From contig JAONGR010000001.1 in assembly GCA_028375605.1 (NCBI GenBank), positions 1 to 64,000 on the forward strand: 64,000 bases of DNA, given 5' to 3'. The number at the start of each line of letters is the position of its first letter. Positions within the stretch are counted from its first letter, which is position 1. A model generated the notes under the pieces. That model was given only the letters and a program-made list of their open reading frames with translations, had not been told where the DNA came from and ran no database searches. This document shows positions 26,822 through 48,549 of the stretch, piece after piece. This stretch comes from Arcobacteraceae bacterium. GTDB lineage: Bacteria; Campylobacterota; Campylobacteria; Campylobacterales; Arcobacteraceae. The position numbers and the translations under genes are program-made.

Positions 26822-27811
26822 CTAAATCTTTTTTAATATTCGATAAGCTTCTTCTTCATAAGATAGTGCATCTTGTAATTTATTAGATATTTTTTCCAAA
26901 TTTAGTTTTTCTAAGTTTCTACTTCCATTTACGCACAGTAAGGCGAACTCTCTTAATGTATCACCAGACTTTACAAATAAAGTAGATGTTTTTTCTAAAA
27001 TTTCATTGTCTATATCATACTGCATTGCTTCTTTTAAAAATGCTGCATAGAGAAATCTAAAACCACCACCACCAGTTCCAATTTCTTCTTGCATTCTTAC
27101 AATATGTGTTAAAAATAATTGAATATATTTTGTATCTTCTTTATACAAGTTTTCGATCTTTCGAGCAAGTCTTTTCATCCCTTTTATTCCCGCAAAAGGA
27201 AATGGTGTCAACATAGATTTTGCATTTTTTCTAATTGCTTTTTTAATTGCTTTAGAAAAATCTATGTTTTGTCTTGTATCTTCAGGATAATATAAAAATC
27301 CTTTTGGTGCAAATGCACCCTTGGCAAATCTAGCCCTCATTAATTTTGATTCTTCACACTCAACAACCTCTTCAAAAACAGGATCAGAAATTTTATATTT
27401 ACTCCCCTCTTTTCCATATACTAAAAGATTATGAGCGTTAAAATGAAAACGCATATCTTCTGGCATATAAGGTAAATAATAAACTGAAGTTTGTAAACCT
27501 ACTAATTTATTTTCGTTATTAACTAACTGTGTCAATCGATTATTTGCTTGGATTGGATCTTTAAATTTTTCTGTCTTAATTTTGATACCCAAAACTTTAG
27601 ATATTTTATTTATAATATTTTTTGGTAACTCTCTATATGCGATTAGAGGTAAACCATTTAGTTTAATAATAGGTAAATATACAAAAGATAAAGAGCTCGT
27701 AATTCCAAAAGCCATTGGTTCTGATATTTTTAAACCATAAAAACTTAATAGTGTTGAAACTACCCCACTTTCACAATGTGCAAATTGCTTATGCTCAAAT
27801 TTATTACTCAA
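26822..27811 (-). CDS. BtrH N-terminal domain-like acyltransferase (cysteine-dependent)
   Basis: HCESGVVSTLLSFYGLKISEPMAFGI; FHFNAHNLLVYG; YKISDPVFEE: candidate Cys-His-Asp residues in BtrH/C39-like order. Confidence 0.75.
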   Translation of the reverse strand: MSNKFEHKQFAHCESGVVSTLLSFYGLKISEPMAFGITSSLSFVYLPIIKLNGLPLIAYRELPKNIINKISKVLGIKIKTEKFKDPIQANNRLTQLVNNENKLVGLQTSVYYLPYMPEDMRFHFNAHNLLVYGKEGSKYKISDPVFEEVVECEESKLMRARFAKGAFAPKGFLYYPEDTRQNIDFSKAIKKAIRKNAKSMLTPFPFAGIKGMKRLARKIENLYKEDTKYIQLFLTHIVRMQEEIGTGGGGFRFLYAAFLKEAMQYDIDNEILEKTSTLFVKSGDTLREFALLCVNGSRNLEKLNLEKISNKLQDALSYEEEAYRILKKI

Positions 27812-28202
27812 ACTTTAATCCTTCTAATTCTTCTATCGTTATATCAAAAGCATCTGCATATTGAATCAATGTTTTTTGATTGAGTTTTTTAAAAATACTA
27901 TTTTTACAATGCCGTTTAACAGTAATCTGAAACTTTCCAACTACAGATGCCAAAGTTGGTATATCCATTCTATTTTTATACATAAAATACTCAATTGGAG
28001 AGGATTTTCCTGATAAAATATCTGCTTTTGATTTTTCCATCAAAATATTATATTCTTCCACTGCTAAACTCGTTGCATACTCTTCAACAGAACTACCATA
28101 TTTAAATGTTTTAAATTCTCCGTCTTCATTTGATGCATACATCACTTTTTGCTGACCATTTGTGGTTTTATTTTCTTCTTGGGGGATGATTACTTTTTTC
28201 AT
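27804..28202 (-). CDS. Small protein with C-terminal XRE/Cro-like HTH
   Basis: DIPTLASVVGKFQITVKRHCKNSIFKKLNQKTLIQYADAFDITIEELEGL resembles an XRE-type domain. Confidence 0.5.
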   Translation of the reverse strand: MKKVIIPQEENKTTNGQQKVMYASNEDGEFKTFKYGSSVEEYATSLAVEEYNILMEKSKADILSGKSSPIEYFMYKNRMDIPTLASVVGKFQITVKRHCKNSIFKKLNQKTLIQYADAFDITIEELEGLKFE

Positions 28203-29350
28203 TAGACAACTGTCAAAGACATAAAAGCAGTCGAAAATCTACCACTTTCAGGAATATAACATAGTATTTTATCACCTTTTTGAAGTCTTTTACTATGAAA
28301 AAGTTCTTCTAACATGATATACATAGAAGCACTTCCTGTATTCCCTTTTGTAACTAAATTAGTAAACCATTTTTCGTATGGTATCTCAAAATTAGCATCA
28401 ATTAACCCTTGATATACTTTTTCTCTAAAATATGTAGAAGAATAGTGTGGTAGAAAATACGTAAAATCAGAAACTTGTAAACCATGTTTTTTTGTAATTG
28501 TTTTTATTGGTTTAGTAACAGTATACTTTATGATATTTGCATTTAAAAGTTTTACATCCTGAGCAACACTTAAAAGTGAATTTTCCATCACCTCATCTTG
28601 ATCATAAGCACGCCATGATACATTTGTACCATCTTCTAAAATATTTAATCCACTATACATACATACAGGCATACTTCCTGCATATGACAATACATCAATA
28701 AAGTCAATTCTTAGAGACAATTTATCTTCATTTGGTTTGTTTTCAACCTTCATAGCACCAGCACCATCTGAAAGCATCCATCGTAAAAAATCTTTCTCAA
28801 AAGCAATTGAAGTATTTTTTTCTAATTCATCAATTAAATGATCCGATTCTTTTTTAAAATTTCTAGCACTTAAGATAGGAGAAGAAGCTTCTGAACCACA
28901 AGATACAGCCGTAGTAATTTCACCTGCTTTGATTCCATAATATACGTATTTTAAAGCATTTATCCCACTTAAACAAATACCTGATGCTGAAATAGTCTCA
29001 ATACCATCAATTTTTAATTCACCTTGAACCATCAAAGTATGTCCTGGCATTAATTGATCTGGAGAAGTTGTACCACAAGCCAAACATTCTATTTCATCTA
29101 AATTAAATTTTCCATTATCAGTTAATTTTTGAATTGCATTTGAACATAATTGTGCATTTGTAAATAAAGGTTTTTGAGTCCCTTTTTCTAATACATAATG
29201 TCGTGACTTTATCCCATTACTTCGTAAAACTATATTTTTAACTTTAGATTTTTTACCACCTATATAACCTAGATATTCTTCTATATCTTTGTTATTTACT
29301 GGTTCGTTTGGCATAAATTTTTGTATATCATTAATATAAACATTTTGCAT
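28202..29350 (-). CDS. darB: Beta-ketoacyl-ACP synthase III-like, dialkylresorcinol synthase DarB type
   Basis: KSIII-like with ISASGICLSGINALKYVYYGI, LPHYSSTYF, TKGNTGSASMYIML; directly downstream of darA. Confidence 0.8.
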   Translation of the reverse strand: MQNVYINDIQKFMPNEPVNNKDIEEYLGYIGGKKSKVKNIVLRSNGIKSRHYVLEKGTQKPLFTNAQLCSNAIQKLTDNGKFNLDEIECLACGTTSPDQLMPGHTLMVQGELKIDGIETISASGICLSGINALKYVYYGIKAGEITTAVSCGSEASSPILSARNFKKESDHLIDELEKNTSIAFEKDFLRWMLSDGAGAMKVENKPNEDKLSLRIDFIDVLSYAGSMPVCMYSGLNILEDGTNVSWRAYDQDEVMENSLLSVAQDVKLLNANIIKYTVTKPIKTITKKHGLQVSDFTYFLPHYSSTYFREKVYQGLIDANFEIPYEKWFTNLVTKGNTGSASMYIMLEELFHSKRLQKGDKILCYIPESGRFSTAFMSLTVV

Positions 29351-29351
29351 A

Positions 29352-30296
29352 TTATGAAAACTCCTTCATTCTTTCAGTTGAACTTCCTGATGGCATTTCA
29401 AAATGTTCTTTTTGTAACTCTACACTTTTTTTATTAATTTTTCTATTGATTATTTGAATCAACATATTAATAGGTACTACAGTCATTATTATTAAAAGTA
29501 AAAATACTAAATATAACATCACAACAGGTTTTCTTTTAAAATCACCAGGTTTCCCTAGCTTTCTAATCAGCTTACCCCATATCTCAAAACTTCTTGTAGC
29601 TATTTGTTCACTTTTTATCAATTTTTCATTGACATTAACTGCGCCCAAACCATAACAAAGAGATTTGAAACTTTGCTCATTATCATTATCTAAACCTTGT
29701 TGAATCGCTCTACCAAATCTACTAGCTGATTCAATCTCAGATTGACTTACACCTGCTTTTGGAAATATATTCCATAACGCATCTTTTTTACCTGTCAATA
29801 GCCATCTTGGGGTGGTGATAAAAGTTGCTAAGGAATTACCTTGATCTATAAGTACAATATTATCTATGATTTTAGCACCCATGGAAGTAAGCATACTTTC
29901 CACTTTTTCTTGTGCTTTTATCCACATATTTCTACAACCGATTAATGTAATAACTGGTTTGTTTTTTAACTTCTCTTTTGCAAAACTTGATTTTAAAAAA
30001 GCTGTTGTTGGTATGGAAGGAGATAAAAACCAAACTTGATAAGCTAAAATAACTAAATCATACTCTATCTCATCATCTGGTATTTCTTCAATTTCACAAG
30101 GATCTAAATAAATAGACTCAGGAAAAGTATCCATAAATGTCATTAAGTCCCATGGATAAGGATATTCTTTTTTGGGTACTATATATTTGTGATAAACATT
30201 CACATTCTCTTTACAAGTAGATAGTACTGATTTTGTGATTAAATCAAGTTGCCCACTTTGAGAATAAGAAACTACCAATATATTTTTATTTTTCAA
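29352..30296 (-). CDS. darA: Dialkylresorcinol enzyme DarA (flavodoxin-like fold)
   Basis: NILVVSYSQSGQLDLI flavodoxin-like loop; EYDLVILAYQVWFLSPSIPTTAFL; C-terminal hydrophobic segment; adjacent to darB. Confidence 0.8.
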   Translation of the reverse strand: MKNKNILVVSYSQSGQLDLITKSVLSTCKENVNVYHKYIVPKKEYPYPWDLMTFMDTFPESIYLDPCEIEEIPDDEIEYDLVILAYQVWFLSPSIPTTAFLKSSFAKEKLKNKPVITLIGCRNMWIKAQEKVESMLTSMGAKIIDNIVLIDQGNSLATFITTPRWLLTGKKDALWNIFPKAGVSQSEIESASRFGRAIQQGLDNDNEQSFKSLCYGLGAVNVNEKLIKSEQIATRSFEIWGKLIRKLGKPGDFKRKPVVMLYLVFLLLIIMTVVPINMLIQIINRKINKKSVELQKEHFEMPSGSSTERMKEFS

Positions 30297-31592: not shown

Positions 31593-32153
31593 ATGAATAG
31601 TTTAATCAAATTAGGTGCAACAGGATTAGTTGCTTTATCATTTTTAACAGGTTGTGGAGTAAACAATAGCACACAGGTAAATACTCCAAGTACAATAAGT
31701 GGAGCAAAAACTATCTATATAAGTAATTCTGTAAAGTTTGCAAAAAGTTCAAGAATCGCAATGAACATAAAAAAAGAATGTAATTTAAATCATCAAATGA
31801 TTGATTATTTAAAAGTTTATGGAGCAAAAAATGATATAAATTTTGAAGTAACTTCAAACCTAAAATCAAAGAAAAATGTATTGAAAATTACAATTGATGA
31901 GGCCATTAGCCAAGGTGGTGCGTTTAGAGGTCACAATAAATTTGTTGCAATATCTGGTAATCTTATTGAGAAAGGTAAATCATATTCATTTAAAGCTGCT
32001 AGAAGATCTGGTGGTGGTTTCTTTGGAGCATACAAAAGTTCTTGTGCTGTTTTAGGTGGTGCAGTAAAAAGACTTGCTAGAGATACAGCTGAATGGGCTA
32101 CATTTCCAGATGATGGAGCAAGACTTGGCGACCAACATCTGCTTAGATATTAA
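31593..32153 (+). CDS. Putative lipoprotein
   Basis: Lipobox FLTGC; opposite strand to surrounding cluster. Confidence 0.6.
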   Translation: MNSLIKLGATGLVALSFLTGCGVNNSTQVNTPSTISGAKTIYISNSVKFAKSSRIAMNIKKECNLNHQMIDYLKVYGAKNDINFEVTSNLKSKKNVLKITIDEAISQGGAFRGHNKFVAISGNLIEKGKSYSFKAARRSGGGFFGAYKSSCAVLGGAVKRLARDTAEWATFPDDGARLGDQHLLRY

Positions 32154-32171
32154 AAAAGGAAATTATAAAAT

Positions 32172-32567
32172 ATGAAAAAATTACTTACACTTAGCAGTAT
32201 ACTTTTAGTATCATTATTATTTTTAACAGGTTGTAGAAGTGCTGCAATTTATAATGTAGTAGAAGCTCCAATTCATACAAAAATATCTTCTGACAGAGTT
32301 TTTAAAGCAATTAAGACAGCAGCTAGATCAAGAGGTTGGTTAGTTAAAAAAGTTAAAAATGGTGTAGCACAAGCAAGAATTAATGTAAGAGGTAGACACT
32401 CTGCTGTTGTGACAATAACATATAATAGAAAAAACTATTCTATACAATATGAAAATAGTCATAACTTAAAATATAACTCTTCAGACAACACAATCCATCA
32501 AACATATAATAAATGGATTGCAAATCTTGATAGAGCTATTCAATTTGAATTAGATTCAATCGAATAA
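32172..32567 (+). CDS. Putative lipoprotein
   Basis: Lipobox FLTGC; TIHQTYNKWIANLDRAI C-terminus. Confidence 0.6.
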   Translation: MKKLLTLSSILLVSLLFLTGCRSAAIYNVVEAPIHTKISSDRVFKAIKTAARSRGWLVKKVKNGVAQARINVRGRHSAVVTITYNRKNYSIQYENSHNLKYNSSDNTIHQTYNKWIANLDRAIQFELDSIE

Positions 32568-32596: not shown

Positions 32597-33412
32597 TTAT
32601 CCCTTTATTATATGAAATAAATATCCTTTACTTCTACTATCCATTGAGATATAAATCATCTCTTTATAATCTTTATCTAAAAAATCAATAATAGATTCAA
32701 TCGTAGTTGAGATTGTAATATCTAATTTATTTTTACTTTTTAAATCTAAATATTTTTTTGCATTCTTATTTGCATATATCTGATTACTATCAAAAGTAGA
32801 AATAAGATTATCAAATTTTTCTAGAGAACTAAAAGCAGCTACAGTTGATATCTTACATAATGCATTCTCTTTATCTTGATTCAAATATAACCAACCACTA
32901 TAGTCGTTGCATCCAGTATTGTCACTAATCACGGCATACTTAGAGAAATCAGTAATGCTTAATAAAGATTCATCAACTAATCCTATTAAAGCATCATTAA
33001 TTTCACCAATTTCTATATCAAATAATGCTAACTCTATAGCTCTTTCAAAAGACAACTCATCTGATGTTAAAAGCATATTTTTTCCATTTGATTCCAATGA
33101 TTGTGAAACATAAAAGCTTACATTATTACTATTGATATTTAAAAAATCAAAAGGCATAATCATTGAATTTTTTTCATTATTATCTAAAACTTTTTTCACA
33201 CTTGTAATTGAAGCAAATTCACTAGAAACATATATTCCAGTATTATCGCTTAAATTTTTTTTATCTACACAATTTAAAGCACCCAGAATCGCGAGTATAT
33301 TAAACTTACTAGAACGTCTAAGGTTTAGTCTACTTATCTTTTTTAAAAGAGTTTTATACTCTTTTATATCCCTAGATTCGTTATTTATTAAATATTTTTT
33401 ATGTATATACAT
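32597..33412 (-). CDS. Degenerate beta-ketoacyl synthase-like protein (possible chain-length-factor-type partner)
   Basis: KS-like N-terminal pattern (GALNCVDKKN...GIYVSSEFASI...PFDFLNINSNNVSFYVSQSL...) without the catalytic Cys motif; follows a complete KS gene. Confidence 0.5.
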   Translation of the reverse strand: MYIHKKYLINNESRDIKEYKTLLKKISRLNLRRSSKFNILAILGALNCVDKKNLSDNTGIYVSSEFASITSVKKVLDNNEKNSMIMPFDFLNINSNNVSFYVSQSLESNGKNMLLTSDELSFERAIELALFDIEIGEINDALIGLVDESLLSITDFSKYAVISDNTGCNDYSGWLYLNQDKENALCKISTVAAFSSLEKFDNLISTFDSNQIYANKNAKKYLDLKSKNKLDITISTTIESIIDFLDKDYKEMIYISMDSRSKGYLFHIIKG

Positions 33413-33413
33413 G

Positions 33414-34568
33414 TTAACTCTTATTACTAATTATTACAGAACTATTATTTCCACCAAAAGCAACATAATTTAATAAAATATTCACTTTTGATGTTATATA
33501 TTCATGTTCAATCATTGGAAAAAAATCACTACCTTCAATAGCATTTTGATATCCTAAACAAGCTGGAAAAAATCCATTTTCTATGCAATATAAAATTAAA
33601 ATCATCTCATTCGTTCCACTTGCTCCTAAAGTATGTCCTAGGTATGGTTTGATTGCGGTTACTTTTATTTTGTGATTCCATTTTTTAAAAAGAGTATTTA
33701 ATGCATTGGATTCAGAGGTATTATTATTTTCACTTCCTGTTGCATGTGCTTTTATCAAATCAATATCATTTAATTGTATATTTGCATTTTCTATTGTGGT
33801 TTCCAAACATTGTAAAATCGGTTTTCCAGTAGGATCACTTGTCGTTTCAGAATAATTATCACAAATATTTGAAGAGGCAAGATATCTAAAATCATCATCT
33901 TTATTTTTATCTGCACTTAAAATAACAGCAGAACACCCTTCTCCTAAAATTATACCATCACTACGAGAATCAAAAGGTCTGTAAATATTTTCTTGTGAAA
34001 GTAACATAAATGATGAGAATCCATCATATGTGCTCTTGTTAAACAGCTCAATACCTATTACTATTGCTTTTTTTATTTTACTGTGCATTATGAGTTTAGA
34101 TGCATACGAAAAAGCATTGATACTAGAAGTACATGCTGTTGCAAGAACCAATGACTTATATTTACTTTTAATATATTCCTCAATAAATGTACCTATAAAT
34201 CCATACCGGATATTAACTAGTTCATCGTTTGATTCATTATTATGAAATTTTTCATTTTCTTCTTCATTGATTGATATGCCCATAGAAGTAGAACCTAAAA
34301 ATATATGTAAATCTTCTGCATCTACTGCAGATAAAGAAGCATCTTTCAGTGCATCATCAATCACTTTTTTTAAAATTTCAAAAAAATAATTATTTGAGGA
34401 AGATGTAAAACCATCTATTTTATAAAAATTTTTTTCTTTAAATTTTTCTTCTAAAAATGATTCATAATTACATTGATCTAAATTTTTAACACTCTTAACA
34501 ATAGATTCTTTCGTAGTACCTAAACTACAAGATAAGGATTTTCCTATAATATAACAGTTATTCTTCAT
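33414..34568 (-). CDS. Beta-ketoacyl-ACP synthase (aryl polyene type)
   Basis: Catalytic TACTSSINAFSYA, KAHATGSENNNTSE, KPYLGHTLGASG (Cys-His-His). Confidence 0.9.
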   Translation of the reverse strand: MKNNCYIIGKSLSCSLGTTKESIVKSVKNLDQCNYESFLEEKFKEKNFYKIDGFTSSSNNYFFEILKKVIDDALKDASLSAVDAEDLHIFLGSTSMGISINEEENEKFHNNESNDELVNIRYGFIGTFIEEYIKSKYKSLVLATACTSSINAFSYASKLIMHSKIKKAIVIGIELFNKSTYDGFSSFMLLSQENIYRPFDSRSDGIILGEGCSAVILSADKNKDDDFRYLASSNICDNYSETTSDPTGKPILQCLETTIENANIQLNDIDLIKAHATGSENNNTSESNALNTLFKKWNHKIKVTAIKPYLGHTLGASGTNEMILILYCIENGFFPACLGYQNAIEGSDFFPMIEHEYITSKVNILLNYVAFGGNNSSVIISNKS

Positions 34569-34570
34569 AA

Positions 34571-34870
34571 CTATTCTGGCTGAATAAAATCAGCTAATGT
34601 ATTAATAGAAACCATAACTTTTCTTAGTTTTTTACTATCAGTCACTACTACCTCATACTTTTTCTGAAGTGCCATAGAGATTTGCAATGCATCCATAGAA
34701 TCTAATTCTAATATGCATTCTTCACTAAACAGTATTTCATCATCAGATATTTCATCTGCATCAACTTCTTTGTCACATTCTTCTATTATAAGCTCTTTTA
34801 ATTCTAGTTTTAATCTGTTATCTTCTGAACCAATCATTCTATTTTTTCCTTTGTAGTAATATATATGCAA
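34571..34870 (-). CDS. Acyl carrier protein
   Basis: EECILELDSMDALQISMALQKKYEVVV: D-S-M phosphopantetheine site. Confidence 0.88.
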   Translation of the reverse strand: MHIYYYKGKNRMIGSEDNRLKLELKELIIEECDKEVDADEISDDEILFSEECILELDSMDALQISMALQKKYEVVVTDSKKLRKVMVSINTLADFIQPE

Positions 34871-35993
34871 TAAAAAAACATATTATAGCAAAAACAAATA
34901 ATTTAAAAAGTGAATTTTGAATATCTACAAAAGTTCCACCATTTACAAAAAGTTCCAAGAAACTATCTAGTGCCCATGACATCGGAGATAAATTAGACAA
35001 CTCTTGCATACTTTGAGGCATGATAAATTTTGGTACCATTATCCCTCCAAGAGCCGCTAGGATAATATTTGAGATACCACCAATTGATGTAGCGTCTTCA
35101 CTTTTTTTGGCTATGTTTGCAATCACTAAGGCAAAAGCAATAGCAGCTAAGGATACTGCCGAAGCTAAAATAAAAATCAAGCCAATATTCCCTTTTATCT
35201 GTAAAGAATCAGCACCTAATAATGGCATCATATATACACCAACTGCTATCATAAAACATACTTGTATTAAATTAATAACATAATAGGGAATCACTTTACC
35301 CATAAGAATTGGAAACATTGAAACATTTATACTTCTAATCCTATTTAGTGTACCAAAGTTTTTTTCATTTATAAAAGTATTTGATATAGGAATAAGTATA
35401 AAAAACATCGAAAATATAAGCCATGCAGGAACACTTTGCTGTACTGATGTGATTTTAAAACTATTTTGTTTTGAGACATAATGATGTTGAATATTAGAGT
35501 AAAAATCTTTTGTTTTTGTTGTATCTACATCCAGTTGAACTAAAAGATTTTTTATAAGTTGTTTACTTATATTTGAACTTAATAAATTTTTTAATAAATT
35601 TATATTTTGAATTGAACTATCAGGTTTAGAATAAAGATCAATTTTTGTATCTTCATTTTTCTGAATTGCTTTTAAATAATCACTAGGAATATGTACTAAA
35701 TAATCATAGTCTCGCTTATATATAATATTTTTGTCATTTATAACACCATCAACATATCTTATTTCAAAAAAATTATTATCCTCTAGTTTACTTAATAAAT
35801 CATTTATAGATTTACTTTTCGTTTCACTTGATACTAAAACTTTAAATTTAACATCTATACTATTTGAATATGTATTTTGTAAAGCCAAAGACATGATTAT
35901 GATAAAAGCGGTTGGCATTACAAAAAGTACTAATAATGCATGTAAATTTCGAAATACAAGTAAAAACTCTTTTTTAAGGATATATCTAAACAT
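34839..35993 (-). CDS. ABC-2 type transporter permease
   Basis: Large extracytoplasmic loop plus ABC-2 TM block; MPQSMQELSNLSPMSWALDSFLELF. Confidence 0.88.
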   Translation of the reverse strand: MFRYILKKEFLLVFRNLHALLVLFVMPTAFIIIMSLALQNTYSNSIDVKFKVLVSSETKSKSINDLLSKLEDNNFFEIRYVDGVINDKNIIYKRDYDYLVHIPSDYLKAIQKNEDTKIDLYSKPDSSIQNINLLKNLLSSNISKQLIKNLLVQLDVDTTKTKDFYSNIQHHYVSKQNSFKITSVQQSVPAWLIFSMFFILIPISNTFINEKNFGTLNRIRSINVSMFPILMGKVIPYYVINLIQVCFMIAVGVYMMPLLGADSLQIKGNIGLIFILASAVSLAAIAFALVIANIAKKSEDATSIGGISNIILAALGGIMVPKFIMPQSMQELSNLSPMSWALDSFLELFVNGGTFVDIQNSLFKLFVFAIICFFIAYILLQRKK

Positions 35994-36853
35994 TAGTCTC
36001 TTAATTCCTGTTTTGTAATTTTTAAAAACATCTCTTCTAAACTTTTATTTCCATAGTCAATAGATACAATTTTTTTATTTTCATTTTTAATATCACTAAA
36101 GGCATTTACTAAATCATCAAAACCATTATTTGTATTAATCTCAACTATATTATTTTCTAAATATATTTTAACAAGGAAGTTTTCATTTACTAGGTTTTGT
36201 TTTGTATCTTTTCTTATTATATTGCCATTATCTAATATAGCTATTTCATCACATAAATATTCTATTTCATCCATGTAATGGGAAGTATAAATAATAGTTG
36301 TATTTTTTATTTTATTAATATTTTTTATTATATCCAAGATATATTTTCTTGATTGAGGATCAATACCTACAGTGGGTTCATCAAGATATAAAATTTTAGG
36401 ATCATTTAAAAGTCCAATCGCAATATTTAGTCTTCTTTTTAATCCACCTGAAAAGTCTTTTGCTTTTTTATTTTTAAACTTTTCCAATGCCGTCATCTTA
36501 ATTGCATCAGTTGTTTTTTCTTTTATATCACAAGATTGAATACCATAAAGGGCTGCAAAAAATTCCAAATTTTCATAAGTAGTTAATTCAGGATAAAAAG
36601 CATAAGACTGAGGAATATAGCTTGAGTTCTTTTGTATATATGCTTTTTCTTTAGCATAATCTTTTCCGAGTATAGAAATTTCTCCACTATCTTTAGATTC
36701 TAAATAATTTAAAATAGATATCAATGTAGTTTTTCCAGCACCATTAGGTCCAAGTAATCCAAAAACTTCACCTTGTTTTATATCTAGATTTAAATCCTTT
36801 AAAACAGGATAATCGGAATATGATTTAGTAAGTAGTTTTATTTTTATCGCCAT
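35993..36853 (-). CDS. ABC transporter ATP-binding protein
   Basis: GLLGPNGAGKTTLISIL, DFSGGLKRRLNIAIGL, ILYLDEPTVGIDP. Confidence 0.94.
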   Translation of the reverse strand: MAIKIKLLTKSYSDYPVLKDLNLDIKQGEVFGLLGPNGAGKTTLISILNYLESKDSGEISILGKDYAKEKAYIQKNSSYIPQSYAFYPELTTYENLEFFAALYGIQSCDIKEKTTDAIKMTALEKFKNKKAKDFSGGLKRRLNIAIGLLNDPKILYLDEPTVGIDPQSRKYILDIIKNINKIKNTTIIYTSHYMDEIEYLCDEIAILDNGNIIRKDTKQNLVNENFLVKIYLENNIVEINTNNGFDDLVNAFSDIKNENKKIVSIDYGNKSLEEMFLKITKQELRD

Positions 36854-36856
36854 AAT

Positions 36857-38089
36857 TTAAGTATCTATTCTCAATTTTTTGCCTACACTAGAAGTTGGTA
36901 TTTTATCTACACATTTTAAATCCATAGAAAACTTTAGATTTGAAAGATTTGATTGAAGTATTTTTTTAATCTCTTTTATACTAAATTCTTCTTTCGTTTC
37001 TAATGTTATATCTAATACTTCACCTCGTAAAGAATCTTTATCATTCTTTACATATACCAAGGCTTTCTCTATTGTTTTTTGAGATTCTAAAATATTTTCA
37101 ATTTGAATTGTTGAGTAACGTTTACCTGCTATTTTTAAAATTTGAGAACTTCGTCCTATTAATTTAAATTGATTCCCATACAATTCTATAAAATCAAAAG
37201 TTTGAATTTCGCCATTAGTAGATTGGAACTTATTTTCATATAATTCTTTTGATACAAAGGGAGATATCACTTTTAATTCATTTTTTTCATTTGTCAGTAT
37301 ATTTACATCAGTTAGAGGAGTCCAGAGAGTTTCACAATTAAACTTATAAGCAATACCACCTGTTTCTGTTGAACCAAATAATTGCATAATATCACAAGAA
37401 AATTTATCATTAAATATTTTTGCGTCATCTTGACCAAGTGGTGCAGTTGAGCTTAAAAATAAAGATTTAGATAAGTTTTTCACTGAAGATATTTTATTTA
37501 AAGCTTTTATATATAAAGGAGTAGTCACAACCAAAGTATTTTCATCTATTGCATCAAGTAAATCATGAGGTAAGAAATGTTCTCTTAGTACTATATCAAT
37601 ATCATTAAAATATGGATAAAACAAACCAGCCAACGATCCATAGATATGAATAAAAGGAACTGTTACAACAACCTTATTAATTTCATATTTTTTTAATAAT
37701 TCACTTAATGCTTTTATTTCACTTTCAATATTATCTTTCGTTTTAAGTGCAGCAGTACTTTCTCCTGTACTTCCACTAGTAAAATATATAAAAGAAAAAT
37801 CTTTATTATCAAAAATAGTATTTTGAGTTTGAGTATTATCATATTCACATATATTTAACTCATCTAATTTTTCAACTAAAAGTTTATTTGATTCATCAAA
37901 TAATATTGATTTTGCATTACTAAAATAAGATTTAAAAATTTTCAATGCATTCTGTTCTTTTGACTTTGAACTAATATATGATACTTTATCAGTTAGCTCC
38001 CTATCGAAAAGACTCTCTTCATTTATCGTATATAAACTAGCCGAACCATTATCATTCAAGATTTTAAGATTCATATTGTACCTCTTCAA
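36857..38089 (-). CDS. AMP-dependent acyl-CoA/ACP synthetase (ApeH-like ligase)
   Basis: SFIYFTSGSTGESTAALKTKDNI, QLFGSTETGGIAYK, C-terminal PTSSVGKKLR. Confidence 0.85.
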   Translation of the reverse strand: MKRYNMNLKILNDNGSASLYTINEESLFDRELTDKVSYISSKSKEQNALKIFKSYFSNAKSILFDESNKLLVEKLDELNICEYDNTQTQNTIFDNKDFSFIYFTSGSTGESTAALKTKDNIESEIKALSELLKKYEINKVVVTVPFIHIYGSLAGLFYPYFNDIDIVLREHFLPHDLLDAIDENTLVVTTPLYIKALNKISSVKNLSKSLFLSSTAPLGQDDAKIFNDKFSCDIMQLFGSTETGGIAYKFNCETLWTPLTDVNILTNEKNELKVISPFVSKELYENKFQSTNGEIQTFDFIELYGNQFKLIGRSSQILKIAGKRYSTIQIENILESQKTIEKALVYVKNDKDSLRGEVLDITLETKEEFSIKEIKKILQSNLSNLKFSMDLKCVDKIPTSSVGKKLRIDT

Positions 38090-41050: not shown

Positions 41051-41782
41051 TTATCGAACCATAGCTCCACTAATATTTAAAACTTCACCACTTACGTATG
41101 TTGCGTCATGCCCTATAAAATAGGCACATTTTGCTACCTCTTCTACTTTCCCAAATCGTTTTAATGGAATAGCTTTTTTGAGTTCTTTTTTATTTGGAAT
41201 ATCTTCTATCATTTCTGATTCTATGATACCTGGTGCTAAGGCATTCACACGTATATTATAGCGACCGAGTTCTATAGCTAACGTTTTTGTCAATGAAATA
41301 ACACCACCCTTAGAAGCTGAATAATTTGCTTGTCCCGAGTTACCACTAATTCCAGAAATAGATGCAACATTAACAATGCTACCTTGTTTATTCATCATCA
41401 TATTTTTGGAAATCATTTTAGTTATATAATATAATCCTGTTAAGTTTGTATTGATTACAGATTCCCACTCATCATCTTCCATAAAGAAAAAAAGATTATC
41501 TTTAATAATTCCAGCATTATTTACTAACACATCTACAGATAAATCTTCTAATGCACTTTTAATCGAAGTTTTATCTTGCATATTAAAAGTTATTAATTCC
41601 CCATGCTCAATAGAATCAAGAATATTTTGTGCTTTTTCTTTATTACTATTATAATGAACATACACAAAATAACCATTTTGCGCATATTCTTTTACAATTG
41701 CTTCACCTATGGAACCTGTTGCACCTGTTACTAATACTTTTTTTAATTCCATCGGTATCTCTTTCTTAAATAAATTTTGCAT
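41051..41782 (-). CDS. 3-oxoacyl-ACP reductase (FabG-like, ApeQ-type)
   Basis: VTGATGSIGEAIVKEYA, VNNAGIIKD, YSASKGGVISLTKTLA. Confidence 0.93.
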   Translation of the reverse strand: MQNLFKKEIPMELKKVLVTGATGSIGEAIVKEYAQNGYFVYVHYNSNKEKAQNILDSIEHGELITFNMQDKTSIKSALEDLSVDVLVNNAGIIKDNLFFFMEDDEWESVINTNLTGLYYITKMISKNMMMNKQGSIVNVASISGISGNSGQANYSASKGGVISLTKTLAIELGRYNIRVNALAPGIIESEMIEDIPNKKELKKAIPLKRFGKVEEVAKCAYFIGHDATYVSGEVLNISGAMVR

Positions 41783-43298
41783 CTTTTAATAAAACTTTGA
41801 TATTTCGAATATCCCCATCCATTCTTCTATCTTCTAAAAGAGGTTCTACAATTGTTCTTATTTCATCATAGATATTTCTAAGATAAGGAGATACTTCATC
41901 TTTACCTCTAATATCAACAGCTTGTGCCATCCCTATAAAAGCAATTGAAAGCATATTATGTAAATCTGGCATCATTTTAGCAAAATCATTTGCAGCTGTA
42001 GTTCCCATAGAAACTTTATCTTGGTTTAATGATTCTGTTGGTCTTGAGTGAATTGAGGCAGCAGTAGTATTTTTAATTACATCTGCACTTAGTGAACTTA
42101 AACTTATTTGCATAGCTTTAAACCCATGAAAAAATGGTTCTTTAGAAAGTTTTAAATTTTCACCTAAACCACGATTAAATTTATGATCAACTAATAATGC
42201 GAATTCTTTATCTAAAAGGTCTGCCAAGTTTGCAGCACAAATTTTAAGTGTATCCATTGCATGTGCTACATATCCTCCATAAAAATTTCCAGAAGTATAA
42301 ATCTTTTTATTTTCACCATCAATAAGAGGATTATCATTTACAGAGTTTATTTCTGTTTCTACCCAATTCTTTGAAATATCTAAATTGTCTCTAATTACTC
42401 CCAAAACTTGTGGTGCACATCTCATAGAATATGTATCTTGAATATTTAAATTATTATCAGCAAAAAATCTATCATATCTATCATCTCTACCATGAGTCAA
42501 TTTTGAACCTTGAATTTTATTCTGAATATTTTTTGCACTTGTAATTTGTCCAGAAAATGGTTTAGAATCATGTACAAAGTCAGCAACTGGAGTATCATCT
42601 CCTAATAACACCTCGAACATTCCAGAAACATAAGATTCCATAGAGTCTAAGATAACTTCAAATTCTTGAATCGCCTTAAGAGCAATAGCACTCATAATTG
42701 TTGTGCCGTTCATAATAGCTAAAGCTTCTTTGGGTTCAAATTCATAAGGTGTGATATTTAGTTCATTATAAACTTCCATTACATCTTTAATTTCACCTTT
42801 ATAATATACTTCTCTCTCCCCTGCTACAACTGCCGCTATATAAGATAATGGAGTCAGATCTCCACTAGCTCCTACTGAACCTTGAGAGGGGATCACAGGA
42901 ATGATATCTTTTTCGATTAACATCTCAAGTCGGTGTAAAAGATTTAATGAAACACCAGAACGTGCTTTACTTAAAGAAATTGTTCGACAAATTACAGCAT
43001 ACCGACAAACTTCATAACTAAGATTTACACCGATTCCACACCCATGAAATCTAAAAAGATTTGTTTGCAGTTTTGCAGCATCCTCATAATTAACATAATT
43101 TCTTCCAGCATCTCCATACCCTGTAGTAATTCCATAAATTGGTTTACCTTGCTTAATTGTATCCATCATAAAATCGTGTGTGTGATTAATAAATTTCGTA
43201 AACTCTTCATTATTTGATATTTCAATACAAGATGCATTTGTAATTTCGCTAAGTGTTATGTGTCTTTTGTCTATATTTAATTTCATTTTTTCTCCCAA
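41766..43298 (-). CDS. Aromatic amino acid ammonia-lyase (HAL/PAL/TAL family)
   Basis: MIO-forming GSVGASGDLTPLSYIAAVVAGE; LFRFHGCGIG; SINDNPL-like NSVNDNPL. Confidence 0.93.
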   Translation of the reverse strand: MGEKMKLNIDKRHITLSEITNASCIEISNNEEFTKFINHTHDFMMDTIKQGKPIYGITTGYGDAGRNYVNYEDAAKLQTNLFRFHGCGIGVNLSYEVCRYAVICRTISLSKARSGVSLNLLHRLEMLIEKDIIPVIPSQGSVGASGDLTPLSYIAAVVAGEREVYYKGEIKDVMEVYNELNITPYEFEPKEALAIMNGTTIMSAIALKAIQEFEVILDSMESYVSGMFEVLLGDDTPVADFVHDSKPFSGQITSAKNIQNKIQGSKLTHGRDDRYDRFFADNNLNIQDTYSMRCAPQVLGVIRDNLDISKNWVETEINSVNDNPLIDGENKKIYTSGNFYGGYVAHAMDTLKICAANLADLLDKEFALLVDHKFNRGLGENLKLSKEPFFHGFKAMQISLSSLSADVIKNTTAASIHSRPTESLNQDKVSMGTTAANDFAKMMPDLHNMLSIAFIGMAQAVDIRGKDEVSPYLRNIYDEIRTIVEPLLEDRRMDGDIRNIKVLLKDAKFI

Positions 43299-44146
43299 AA
43301 GTTATAAAAATTAAACCATTGATTTGGATGATTTAATATTGTTTTTTCGTACATTTTAATGTAAACTTTCATAGCTTTTTTTACAGCTACTTTTTCTTCT
43401 AACGTCTTATCTAATTCTATTTTAGTGAACTCTACACTATATTTTTTCATAGATTTAAAAATAACAAAATAAACTAAAATAGGTTTATTTGTTTTATATG
43501 CTATTTGAAATGGATTTTTATTAAAAAATGCTTCTTTACCAAAAAAGTCCATTCCTAATTCACCGCTTTTATTTGAAGCTCTATCACCCATAATTGCAAC
43601 GATTTCATCATTCATTAAGGCATTTGCTATCTCTATAGAAACAGTAATTCCACCTTTATTTAAATCGATAATATTTAAATTATTTTCTAAGTCTCTAGAG
43701 TTTTCAATATCTTTGATACTCTCAGATAATACCTCTTTCATTACTATATTAACTTTATTATTAATATCTTTTGTATCATTATTAGCTGACGCTGCCCATC
43801 CTCCATAATGAGAATGAAGAACTATACATCCATTCTTTAAAAGGTCAGACATTTTTTCTTTAGCATCATAATTAAAATCATACTCTTCAATAGTAAGCTT
43901 AGTAATAAACCTATCAACCATACAAATAGCAAATATTCTTAAATGTTCAAAATATACCATATTTGAAAATGGAACACCGATAGTATCATAATAATCTTTA
44001 ATTGATTTTTTTACATTTGTAGAAAATAAAAAATAAAAAAAACTTACTGGATACATTAAAAGATAAATAAATTTATACCCTAATATTTTATAAAGGGTAA
44101 AAACTAGATTAATACTCCAGCCACTCCCTCTTTGTTTGGTCTTCAC
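43283..44146 (-). CDS. LpxL/HtrB-like lysophospholipid acyltransferase
   Basis: VLHSHYGGWAASAN (H-x-G-x-W type), IMGDRASNKSGELGMDFFGKEAFF. Confidence 0.8.
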   Translation of the reverse strand: MKTKQRGSGWSINLVFTLYKILGYKFIYLLMYPVSFFYFLFSTNVKKSIKDYYDTIGVPFSNMVYFEHLRIFAICMVDRFITKLTIEEYDFNYDAKEKMSDLLKNGCIVLHSHYGGWAASANNDTKDINNKVNIVMKEVLSESIKDIENSRDLENNLNIIDLNKGGITVSIEIANALMNDEIVAIMGDRASNKSGELGMDFFGKEAFFNKNPFQIAYKTNKPILVYFVIFKSMKKYSVEFTKIELDKTLEEKVAVKKAMKVYIKMYEKTILNHPNQWFNFYNFWEKK

Positions 44147-46191: not shown

Positions 46192-47306
46192 TTTACACGT
46201 CCAAATATCAAACTACAGTTATTTCCACCAAAAGCAAATGAATTACTCATAACATATTTAATATCTAAATCTTTATTCTCCATAGGAAATAAAATATTAT
46301 TATTTTCTGCAACATTCATATTTGTAACTTTAGGTATAACTTGGTTCAAAATTACTAACGATGAAATTACAGCTTCCAAAGAACCAGCAGCTCCTAAAGT
46401 ATGCCCTGTAACTGATTTTGTGGAACTTACATAAACATCTTTTCCAAAAATAGCTTCAATTGCATTTGCTTCAGCATGATCATTTGCCATAGTACCTGTT
46501 CCATGTGCATTTATGTACTGTATATCTTTAGCTTTTTTATTAGCTGAATCTAATGCATTTTGCATAGATTTTTGAGCTCCTTTACCATCTGGATGAGGAT
46601 GAGTCATATGATGAGCATCAGAACTATATCCAACCCCACAAAGTTCTACACAATTTTCATTTGGTACTGTTTGTAATAAAGTTGAGACTATCCCCTCTGC
46701 TACATTCATACCTTCCCGAGATTCATCAAAAGGTTTGCAAGTATTTGATGATAAAACACCAAGTGATAAAAAACCACCAACTGTAGTTTTAGATATTTGA
46801 TCTATACCAACTACTAATACATTTGAATACAATCCTTTAGATAAAACTTCATAGGCATATCCCATAGCATTAGCACTAGAGGTACAAGCAGTTGAAAAAG
46901 ATATACTATCCCTGAATTTATGTTCTCCTTCAATGATATGAGAAATTGCATTTATATTATGTAATTTTGGATTTATATTTTTATATTCTTTGCTTTTCAA
47001 AAATATATTCTCAGTGTTATTCATCCCACCAACAGAAGAACCTATAACAAGTAATGTATCTTCAAAATCTTTTAAATTGCTATTATCTAATATCTCTTCA
47101 ATTTGTTTAGTTAAAATTTCATAAAAAATCTGATCAGACTTAATCAATCCTACGGATGGTGAAAGATTTTGAAAATAGTTTTTTATTTGAGTAATTCCAC
47201 TTCTAGAGTTACATATATTGTGAAATAATTCTTCGTTATTTTTTCCCGCACAGCAACAACTACTGCTATGTGTTATATAAACTTTTTTAGAAGATTGAGA
47301 TATCAA
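46188..47306 (-). CDS. Beta-ketoacyl-ACP synthase (FabF-like, aryl polyene type)
   Basis: Catalytic TACTSSANAMGYA, NAHGTGTMANDHAE, KSVTGHTLGAAGSLEAV. Confidence 0.94.
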   Translation of the reverse strand: MISQSSKKVYITHSSSCCCAGKNNEELFHNICNSRSGITQIKNYFQNLSPSVGLIKSDQIFYEILTKQIEEILDNSNLKDFEDTLLVIGSSVGGMNNTENIFLKSKEYKNINPKLHNINAISHIIEGEHKFRDSISFSTACTSSANAMGYAYEVLSKGLYSNVLVVGIDQISKTTVGGFLSLGVLSSNTCKPFDESREGMNVAEGIVSTLLQTVPNENCVELCGVGYSSDAHHMTHPHPDGKGAQKSMQNALDSANKKAKDIQYINAHGTGTMANDHAEANAIEAIFGKDVYVSSTKSVTGHTLGAAGSLEAVISSLVILNQVIPKVTNMNVAENNNILFPMENKDLDIKYVMSNSFAFGGNNCSLIFGRVK

Positions 47307-47560
47307 GAATTGTTCGAATCATTAATGTATTTTAATAAATTTTCAATTGATGCAAAAATTACATCATATTGTTTAGAATCATTAATTTTAACACCAAATT
47401 CTTTTTCTATTGCAAGTACCAATTCAATAGAATCAACGGAATCCAATCCTATACCTTCATCACCAAATAGTGGATCTTTATCATCAATCTCATCTGCTGT
47501 AATATCTTCTAAATTTAAATATTTAATTAAAACGTTTTTTAGTGTGTCGCTTGTTATCAT
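47303..47560 (-). CDS. Acyl carrier protein
   Basis: GDEGIGLDSVDSIELVLAIEKEFGVKI: phosphopantetheine site DSV. Confidence 0.93.
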   Translation of the reverse strand: MITSDTLKNVLIKYLNLEDITADEIDDKDPLFGDEGIGLDSVDSIELVLAIEKEFGVKINDSKQYDVIFASIENLLKYINDSNNS

Positions 47561-47604: not shown

Positions 47605-48549
47605 TTAAAGCTTATCATTTAATATTATATTTATTTTTTTAGATACTTTCTTGGAAATAAGAATACTTGTATGGTTTTCATTAAAACCAAAAATACTGAT
47701 AGCACCATCTTGAGCGTATTGAGATAGTTGACTTTCAATAGAAATTGTTCCATCATTATCTCGACCATATAAAGTTATTTTACCTTTATATCCAAATATT
47801 AAATAATGATTTACACCATTAAAGATATTATTATTTTTTAATAACTTAATAAATTGACTATCTTTTTTCATATCATTCCATGAAGGAATATAATATGGTA
47901 GGTCTTTTGTATTAGTAGCACCTGCATGACCACCCCATGGTGTAGATAAAGTAATAAATAAGTCTACTCTTTTTTTATTTTTATTTAACTCTTTTATCAA
48001 AGACTTAGAGATGAGTCCTCCCATACTATGAGCGATAACAACCATCTTATTTATATCATATTCAGTTAGTAATTTTTCTAAATTTTCATTGATAATATCT
48101 ACAGTATAACTTAACTTCACACCTGATGGGTATGAAACTATAATTGGTTGATATCTTGTTTTATCTAATTTTTGAATTATATACTCCCAATCTAAAGGCG
48201 TTCCTCCTGCTCCATGTACAAATAAAATAGGTATTTTTCTACTGTCATATTTATTTAAAAAATATATACCACCACCTATTTTTTTTATAAATTTGTAAGG
48301 TAACCATAATCCTGTTTGTGCATATTTTCTAGAAAACTTTCTACTATCTAAAGTACTAATTTTACCATATGCAAAGTTTGATTGGTACATCTTCAATATT
48401 TGTTTATCTTTTACATCATTTTCAGATTTTTCTTGAGAATAAAAAGAAAGGGAAACATTTTCTTTAAAATTATCTAATTTACTACAACCACTAAAAATAA
48501 TAAGGAGGACTATTGATCCACAAATTTTAAAACAATTTCTAATTTTCAT
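47605..48549 (-). CDS. Lipoprotein alpha/beta-hydrolase (lipase/esterase-like)
   Basis: Lipobox IFSGC; ILFVHGAGGTPLDWE; VVIAHSMGGLISKSL nucleophile elbow. Confidence 0.85.
   Translation of the reverse strand: MKIRNCFKICGSIVLLIIFSGCSKLDNFKENVSLSFYSQEKSENDVKDKQILKMYQSNFAYGKISTLDSRKFSRKYAQTGLWLPYKFIKKIGGGIYFLNKYDSRKIPILFVHGAGGTPLDWEYIIQKLDKTRYQPIIVSYPSGVKLSYTVDIINENLEKLLTEYDINKMVVIAHSMGGLISKSLIKELNKNKKRVDLFITLSTPWGGHAGATNTKDLPYYIPSWNDMKKDSQFIKLLKNNNIFNGVNHYLIFGYKGKITLYGRDNDGTISIESQLSQYAQDGAISIFGFNENHTSILISKKVSKKINIILNDKL

Follow-up and report, generated by a model that had tools for sequence, protein, structure and literature searches.

The gene that closes the darA-darB operon in the analysed stretch of DNA (the window; 64,000 nucleotides from an Arcobacteraceae bacterium) encodes DarH, which is probably a carrier-protein-dependent cysteine acyltransferase that esterifies a dialkylresorcinol (DAR) with an aryl polyene, and which we regard as the leading candidate for this step. 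The gene belongs to a flexirubin-type cluster for aryl polyene and DAR (26822-48549) in an Arcobacter-like Campylobacterota genome with a completeness of 62%, and the nearest relatives of its DarB are from Arcobacter. Flexirubins are widespread outer-membrane pigments and serve as chemotaxonomic markers. The literature searched yielded no paper that identifies the enzyme linking polyene to resorcinol, and none with a biochemical or genetic test of DarH; by their distribution, the candidates for the linkage step can be narrowed to one small module that includes DarH.

The genes for DarA, DarB, DarG and DarH follow each other in this order on the same strand (Table 1). An earlier note on this DNA had placed the darH gene at the end of the darA-darB operon; this position was confirmed, with darG lying between darB and darH. 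In the sequence as read, the darG and darH reading frames share 8 bases. A promoter scan gave a site count not above that of shuffled sequences, and no terminator-like site was found 3' of darH. Two plus-strand open reading frames of 186 and 131 aa without a clear family (31593-32567) separate the DAR operon from the ketosynthase block.

Table 1. Positions of the DAR and polyene features in the window and of candidate functional sites in darH.
Feature	Position	Strand	Basis or remark
DarH, BtrH-like cysteine acyltransferase (putative)	26822..27811	-	329 aa, TTG start; BtrH_N, DUF4872 and NF053550 matches
Asp143 codon, candidate catalytic	27383..27385	-	75/75 conserved; His-Asp spacing 16, as in CtaG (H128-D144)
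His127 codon, candidate catalytic	27431..27433	-	75/75 conserved; Cys-His spacing 113-114, in CtaG 117
Cys13 codon, candidate nucleophile	27773..27775	-	75/75 conserved; first residue of helix 13-24 in model
His7 codon	27791..27793	-	75/75 conserved; six residues N-terminal of Cys13
Shine-Dalgarno-like AGAAGGA	27819..27825	-	7 bases 5' of the darH TTG
DarG, C-terminal Cro/C1-like helix-turn-helix fold (predicted)	27804..28202	-	132 aa; NF053536, 141 bits; model; adjacency
DarB, dialkylresorcinol ketosynthase	28202..29350	-	NF005293, 592 bits (cut-off 450)
DarA, dialkylresorcinol-forming partner	29352..30296	-	synteny only; no library match
271-aa protein beyond module ketosynthase (equivalent of Azoarcus darK)	32597..33412	-	synteny
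Ketosynthase of DAR module (equivalent of Azoarcus darJ), rival ester former	33414..34568	-	profile matches, synteny
Acyl carrier protein of DAR module (equivalent of Azoarcus darC)	34571..34870	-	synteny; PMC3949708 Table 1
ABC-2 permease of DAR module	34839..35993	-	profile match, synteny
ABC ATPase of DAR module	35993..36853	-	profile match, synteny
Coumarate-type ligase	36857-38089		
Tyrosine ammonia-lyase	41766-43298		
LpxL-like acyltransferase of polyene half	43283-44146		
Acyl carrier protein of polyene half, candidate DarH acyl donor	47303..47560	-	

Beside the DAR genes, the window carries a polyene set comprising a tyrosine ammonia-lyase, a coumarate-type ligase, ketosynthases, acyl carrier proteins (ACPs), a ketoreductase, a glycosyltransferase, an LpxL-like acyltransferase and an exporter-like membrane protein. 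The tyrosine ammonia-lyase scored 405 bits against the model for bagremycin/ferroverdin BagA/FevW and less, 355 bits (cut-off 700), against that for flexirubin FlxA. A lipoprotein-like alpha/beta hydrolase of the LCAT/PGAP1 kind (47605-48549) adjoins the polyene ACP and is rare near other DAR loci.

The DarH protein was matched by BtrH_N (152.6 bits, E=9e-45, model positions 1-134 of 134) and DUF4872 (167.1 bits, E=4e-49, model positions 2-172 of 173), both above the Pfam gathering score, and by the NCBIfam equivalog NF053550 (DarH_acyl, 'BtrH-related acyltransferase DarH') with 463.1 bits (E=4.5e-139, model positions 1-325 of 325; curated cut-off 300 bits). These matches agree with the membership of a BtrH-like cysteine enzyme family that the earlier note had claimed. 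The family had already been named by NCBI curators, and the open reading frame encodes an intact member. Its position behind DarB and DarG is that of the DarH described by NF053550; the window copy is a Campylobacterota protein with a TTG start, and no structural difference was seen.

The motifs HCESG, NAHNLLVYG and ISDPVF, which the earlier note had read in the protein, were all found, at residues 12-16, 125-133 and 141-146. The Cys-His-Asp order given there was kept in 75 DarH proteins collected from loci around DarB in Campylobacterota and in gamma-, beta-, alpha- and deltaproteobacteria, with 38-69% identity to the window protein. Invariant in all 75 were His7, His12, Cys13, Glu14, Gly16, Gln107, Asn125, His127, Asn128, Asp143, Pro144, Arg239, Glu242 and Glu243. 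His7 is presumably at the position of the papain oxyanion-hole Gln. Five further proteins with BtrH_N and DUF4872 (25-28% identity) also keep Cys13, His127, Glu242, Arg252 and the TG of the DUF4872 motif, but not Asn125, Asn128 and Glu243, which are marks of DarH. In a tree, DarH formed a single clade separate from these five proteins, which are a small outgroup set (support 0.96).

To examine the fold, an AlphaFold2 model of DarH was built on 48 diverse DarH sequences (pLDDT 91.6, pTM 0.90). In this model Cys13 begins the first helix, an arrangement known from papain folds, the kind of fold that the earlier note had expected. A Foldseek search of the PDB returned whole-chain matches, over both parts of the fold, to AziU3 (8gs1, 7wuw), CtaG (9qvj and variants) and CcbD (7yn1, 7yn2, 9dkr), with TM-scores of the predicted model mostly between 0.65 and 0.72 and a best E of 8.6e-10. 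These relatives were detected by fold alone: their identity to DarH is 11-14% despite the full-length likeness, and PDB sequence searches with the DarH protein and with the 48-member profile gave no true relative, only chance coiled-coil and design matches.

CtaG, CcbD and DarH are alike in having a cysteine-histidine-acid triad, and the CtaG variants C11A, H128A and D144N, named in PDB titles, correspond to Cys13, His127 and Asp143 of DarH. CcbD, of the celesticetin pathway, works by a ping-pong mechanism: its cysteine first takes over the acyl group from the carrier protein, and the acceptor then attacks the acyl group so loaded (PMC12945683). For CtaG, of the closthioamide pathway, transfer of a hydroxybenzoyl group from one carrier protein to another has been proposed (PMC6772006). 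The full-length fold likeness to proteins that move acyl groups from carrier proteins as cysteine thioesters supports the proposed ester role of DarH. The likeness to AziU3, an azinomycin protein, is also one of full-length fold. The row of carrier-protein-binding arginines of CcbD (Arg312/316/324) was not recognised in the last helix of DarH; elsewhere DarH has several conserved basic residues (K50, R60, R161, R239, R252 and R287). Further, CtaG and CcbD products are amides, whereas DarH is proposed to release an aryl ester. The chemistry known for structural relatives thus speaks against the proposal, and an ester made by DarH would be new chemistry for this fold. BtrH, the namesake of the BtrH_N domain, moves an acyl group in butirosin biosynthesis from an ACP to an acceptor, which is an aminoglycoside amine; it was compared with DarH by description.

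In the reaction that we propose, the finished aryl polyene would pass from its ACP to Cys13 of DarH, activated by His127 and Asp143, where it would form a thioester with the enzyme. This thioester would then be attacked by a hydroxyl, deprotonated by His127, of the DAR that DarA and DarB make, and a flexirubin/arcuflavin-type ester would be released. The co-encoded ABC transporter probably carries this hydrophobic ester towards the outer membrane. The earlier note had likewise proposed that ACP-bound polyene is transferred to the resorcinol hydroxyl; its reading of the family, the active site and the cluster logic held up, and distribution and fold came out in favour of the transfer, which stands as a supported but unproven proposal.

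The distribution of DarB and DarH was determined in 298 Campylobacterota genomes, each protein being scored above its own family cut-off. Both occurred in an identical set of 14 genomes. The aryl polyene marker, PF13723, was present in 55 of the 298, among them all 14 with DarH, while DarH was found in 0 of the 41 polyene-only genomes; within the polyene group the Fisher test gave p=2e-13 with relatedness ignored, and since genomes are non-independent draws this value, like every Fisher value here, overstates the evidence. DAR genes are sporadic in the phylum and polyene genes commoner, as these counts show. Of 200 Pseudomonas genomes, 18 had DarB-type genes, and the 14 with DarH were all among these 18. 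PF13723 was near-universal in this genus (34 of 38 genomes tested) and hence uninformative there. DarB and the polyene marker were also found in some Pseudomonas without DarH, which is compatible with free DAR and also means that the two halves coexist without DarH. A mixed set of 41 DarB genomes from many groups included 36 with DarH, all of them with the polyene marker, and the five without DarH included the only two that lacked PF13723; taken alone, this set gave a weak Fisher value (p=0.012) because just five DarB genomes were without DarH.

At the level of loci, DarA adjoined DarB in 78 of 80 cases, and DarH was within 10 kb in 74 of the 80 DarB loci, always with DarG beside it. Of the six loci without nearby DarH, one (L056, genome G298) has DarG-DarH elsewhere on the contig (L136), where the two genes follow immediately after a polyene ACP and ketosynthase and are apart from DarA-DarB; the other five come from genomes with no DarH. 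From the co-occurrence in Campylobacterota, Pseudomonas and the mixed set, DarH is tied in the sampled genomes to DAR-plus-polyene hybrids and to neither half alone. As DarH was present only with DarB and, wherever scored, with the polyene marker, an outcome that could have been otherwise, the distribution supports the ester role. In Pseudomonas G460, a DarB-like ketosynthase below the family cut-off (L134, 9353-10585) is encoded next to an AMP ligase and close to a 1313-aa protein that contains a ketosynthase; it likely belongs to another pathway. A Brenneria DarB-type gene without DarA or DarH (L121, 9989-11137) adjoins the gene for the small chain of a ribonucleotide reductase.

In most loci DarH is accompanied by DarG, the ABC ATPase, the ABC permease, the ACP, the ketosynthase and the 271-aa protein. 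The permease was present in 4 of 4 DarH genomes that were checked individually, even where its gene was not adjacent, and in 0 of 6 DarB genomes without DarH. Because the distribution of the module genes is similar, the profile points to the module and does not single out DarH, which has the best acyl-transfer precedent among the members. DarG may be either a regulator or a partner of DarH: its model has a Cro/C1-like helix-turn-helix fold with a low-confidence N-terminal third, and HTH_26 was found in 10 of 47 members. An identity with AziU2, the partner of AziU3, was rejected, as PDB profile and fold searches with DarG gave only Cro/C1-type helix-turn-helix folds (E>=0.016).

The same module holds the alternative that survives best, in which its ketosynthase, with its own ACP and the 271-aa protein, joins the halves and DarH, for example, loads or edits the ACP. 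The ketosynthase-ACP pair is part of the DarH module in most loci, and the absence of the permease from DarB genomes without DarH would fit this reading too. Ketosynthase-like O-acyltransferases exist, and the module ketosynthase has a weak match to AmcF, a named acyltransferase subunit (133 bits, cut-off 325). It retains its Cys (TACTS), however, and so fits ordinary condensation; the simpler view of an ACP and a ketosynthase specific to DAR is that they supply its beta-ketoacyl precursor, as we infer from Azoarcus darC and darJ. With the better mechanistic precedent on the side of DarH, we consider this alternative unlikely but a genuine rival.

A little less likely still is a role of DarH in DAR assembly, in which it would take the module ACP and transfer a fatty or beta-ketoacyl group, not the polyene. 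DarH and the ABC-ACP-ketosynthase genes do stand in one block in most loci, and in Azoarcus all of these are DAR genes (PMC3949708). In E. coli, however, DarA and DarB alone yield DAR (PMC3992019), so that DarH is not needed for the ring and would act after its formation. DarB loci without DarH exist, DarG-DarH abuts a polyene ACP-ketosynthase pair in L136, and a part in DAR assembly would leave the restriction of DarH to polyene genomes unexplained.

Other enzymes have been proposed for related steps. In C. pinensis the ligase-like FlxW was proposed to link the flexirubin halves (PMC3992019), and in E. coli ApeD and ApeJ take part in attaching the polyene alone to its anchor (PMC8253772); the window genes comparable to the ApeD/ApeJ types are those for the LpxL-like protein and the glycosyltransferase. 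On these precedents the LpxL-like acyltransferase or a FlxW-type ligase could form the ester, with DarH as a thioesterase or tailoring enzyme, which we hold to be improbable. ApeD/ApeJ-type genes occur in polyene clusters without any DAR and are therefore not specific to the DAR ester, and no second ligase besides the coumarate-type ligase was seen in the window. An experimental test of FlxW or of ApeD/ApeJ-type genes for the DAR ester was not found in the literature. The earlier note had held that no other obvious ester former was at hand in the DAR half; that statement overlooked the DAR-module ketosynthase with its ACP, and the polyene half adds the LpxL-like acyltransferase. Finally, DarH could be read as a C39-type peptidase that partners the ABC transporter in the manner of bacteriocin exporters, since darH adjoins the transporter in most loci and fold matches to PCAT1 and to C39 peptidase domains, though weaker, were obtained. 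This reading was rejected as highly improbable: those matches were partial (TM by query length 0.31-0.37) against the whole-chain matches to CtaG, CcbD and AziU3, DarH is a separate soluble protein, and no leader-peptide substrate gene was noticed.

The proposed assignment of DarH as ester former was compared with the DAR locus of Azoarcus sp. BH72, whose pigment arcuflavin is a polyene-DAR ester (PMC3949708). A BtrH-like gene is present in an organism that makes such an ester (PMC3949708 Table 1); it lies beside darA/darB, is called darE and was listed in 2014 as a 'BtrH-like peptidase' without a function (PMC3949708). The darH of that paper is a PilT domain gene and not the DarH of NF053550, to which darE is equivalent. 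Azoarcus and the window share the order darA-darB-small protein-BtrH-like-ABC ATPase-permease-ACP-ketosynthase-hypothetical (PMC3949708). Azoarcus is a beta-proteobacterium in which the polyene genes are unlinked and start from 3-hydroxybenzoate (PMC3949708), whereas the window has a tyrosine ammonia-lyase.

More tentatively, and with rather less than even confidence, DarH may be the first BtrH/CtaG/CcbD-type cysteine acyltransferase that acts on a phenol and the missing former of flexirubin/arcuflavin esters across several phyla, with DarG as its dedicated partner and not a mere regulator. If this were true, a fold for which amides are the sole products seen here would gain the esterification of a phenol, and DarH would become a tool for making hybrid lipids.

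Proteins with BtrH_N and DUF4872 were also seen away from DAR genes. A Pseudomonas without DarB (L135, 8087-9082) has a different protein of this kind, with 137 bits to DarH, encoded a few genes from an AMP-ligase-like gene; it belongs to a separate subfamily. A BtrH_N/DUF4872-type protein is also borne by Acinetobacter plasmids (45 records). In the sole plasmid that was examined (L138, 1407-3320) the gene has a TetR regulator on one side and two PaaI-type thioesterases on the other, a setting that suggests acyl thioesters but has no ACP.
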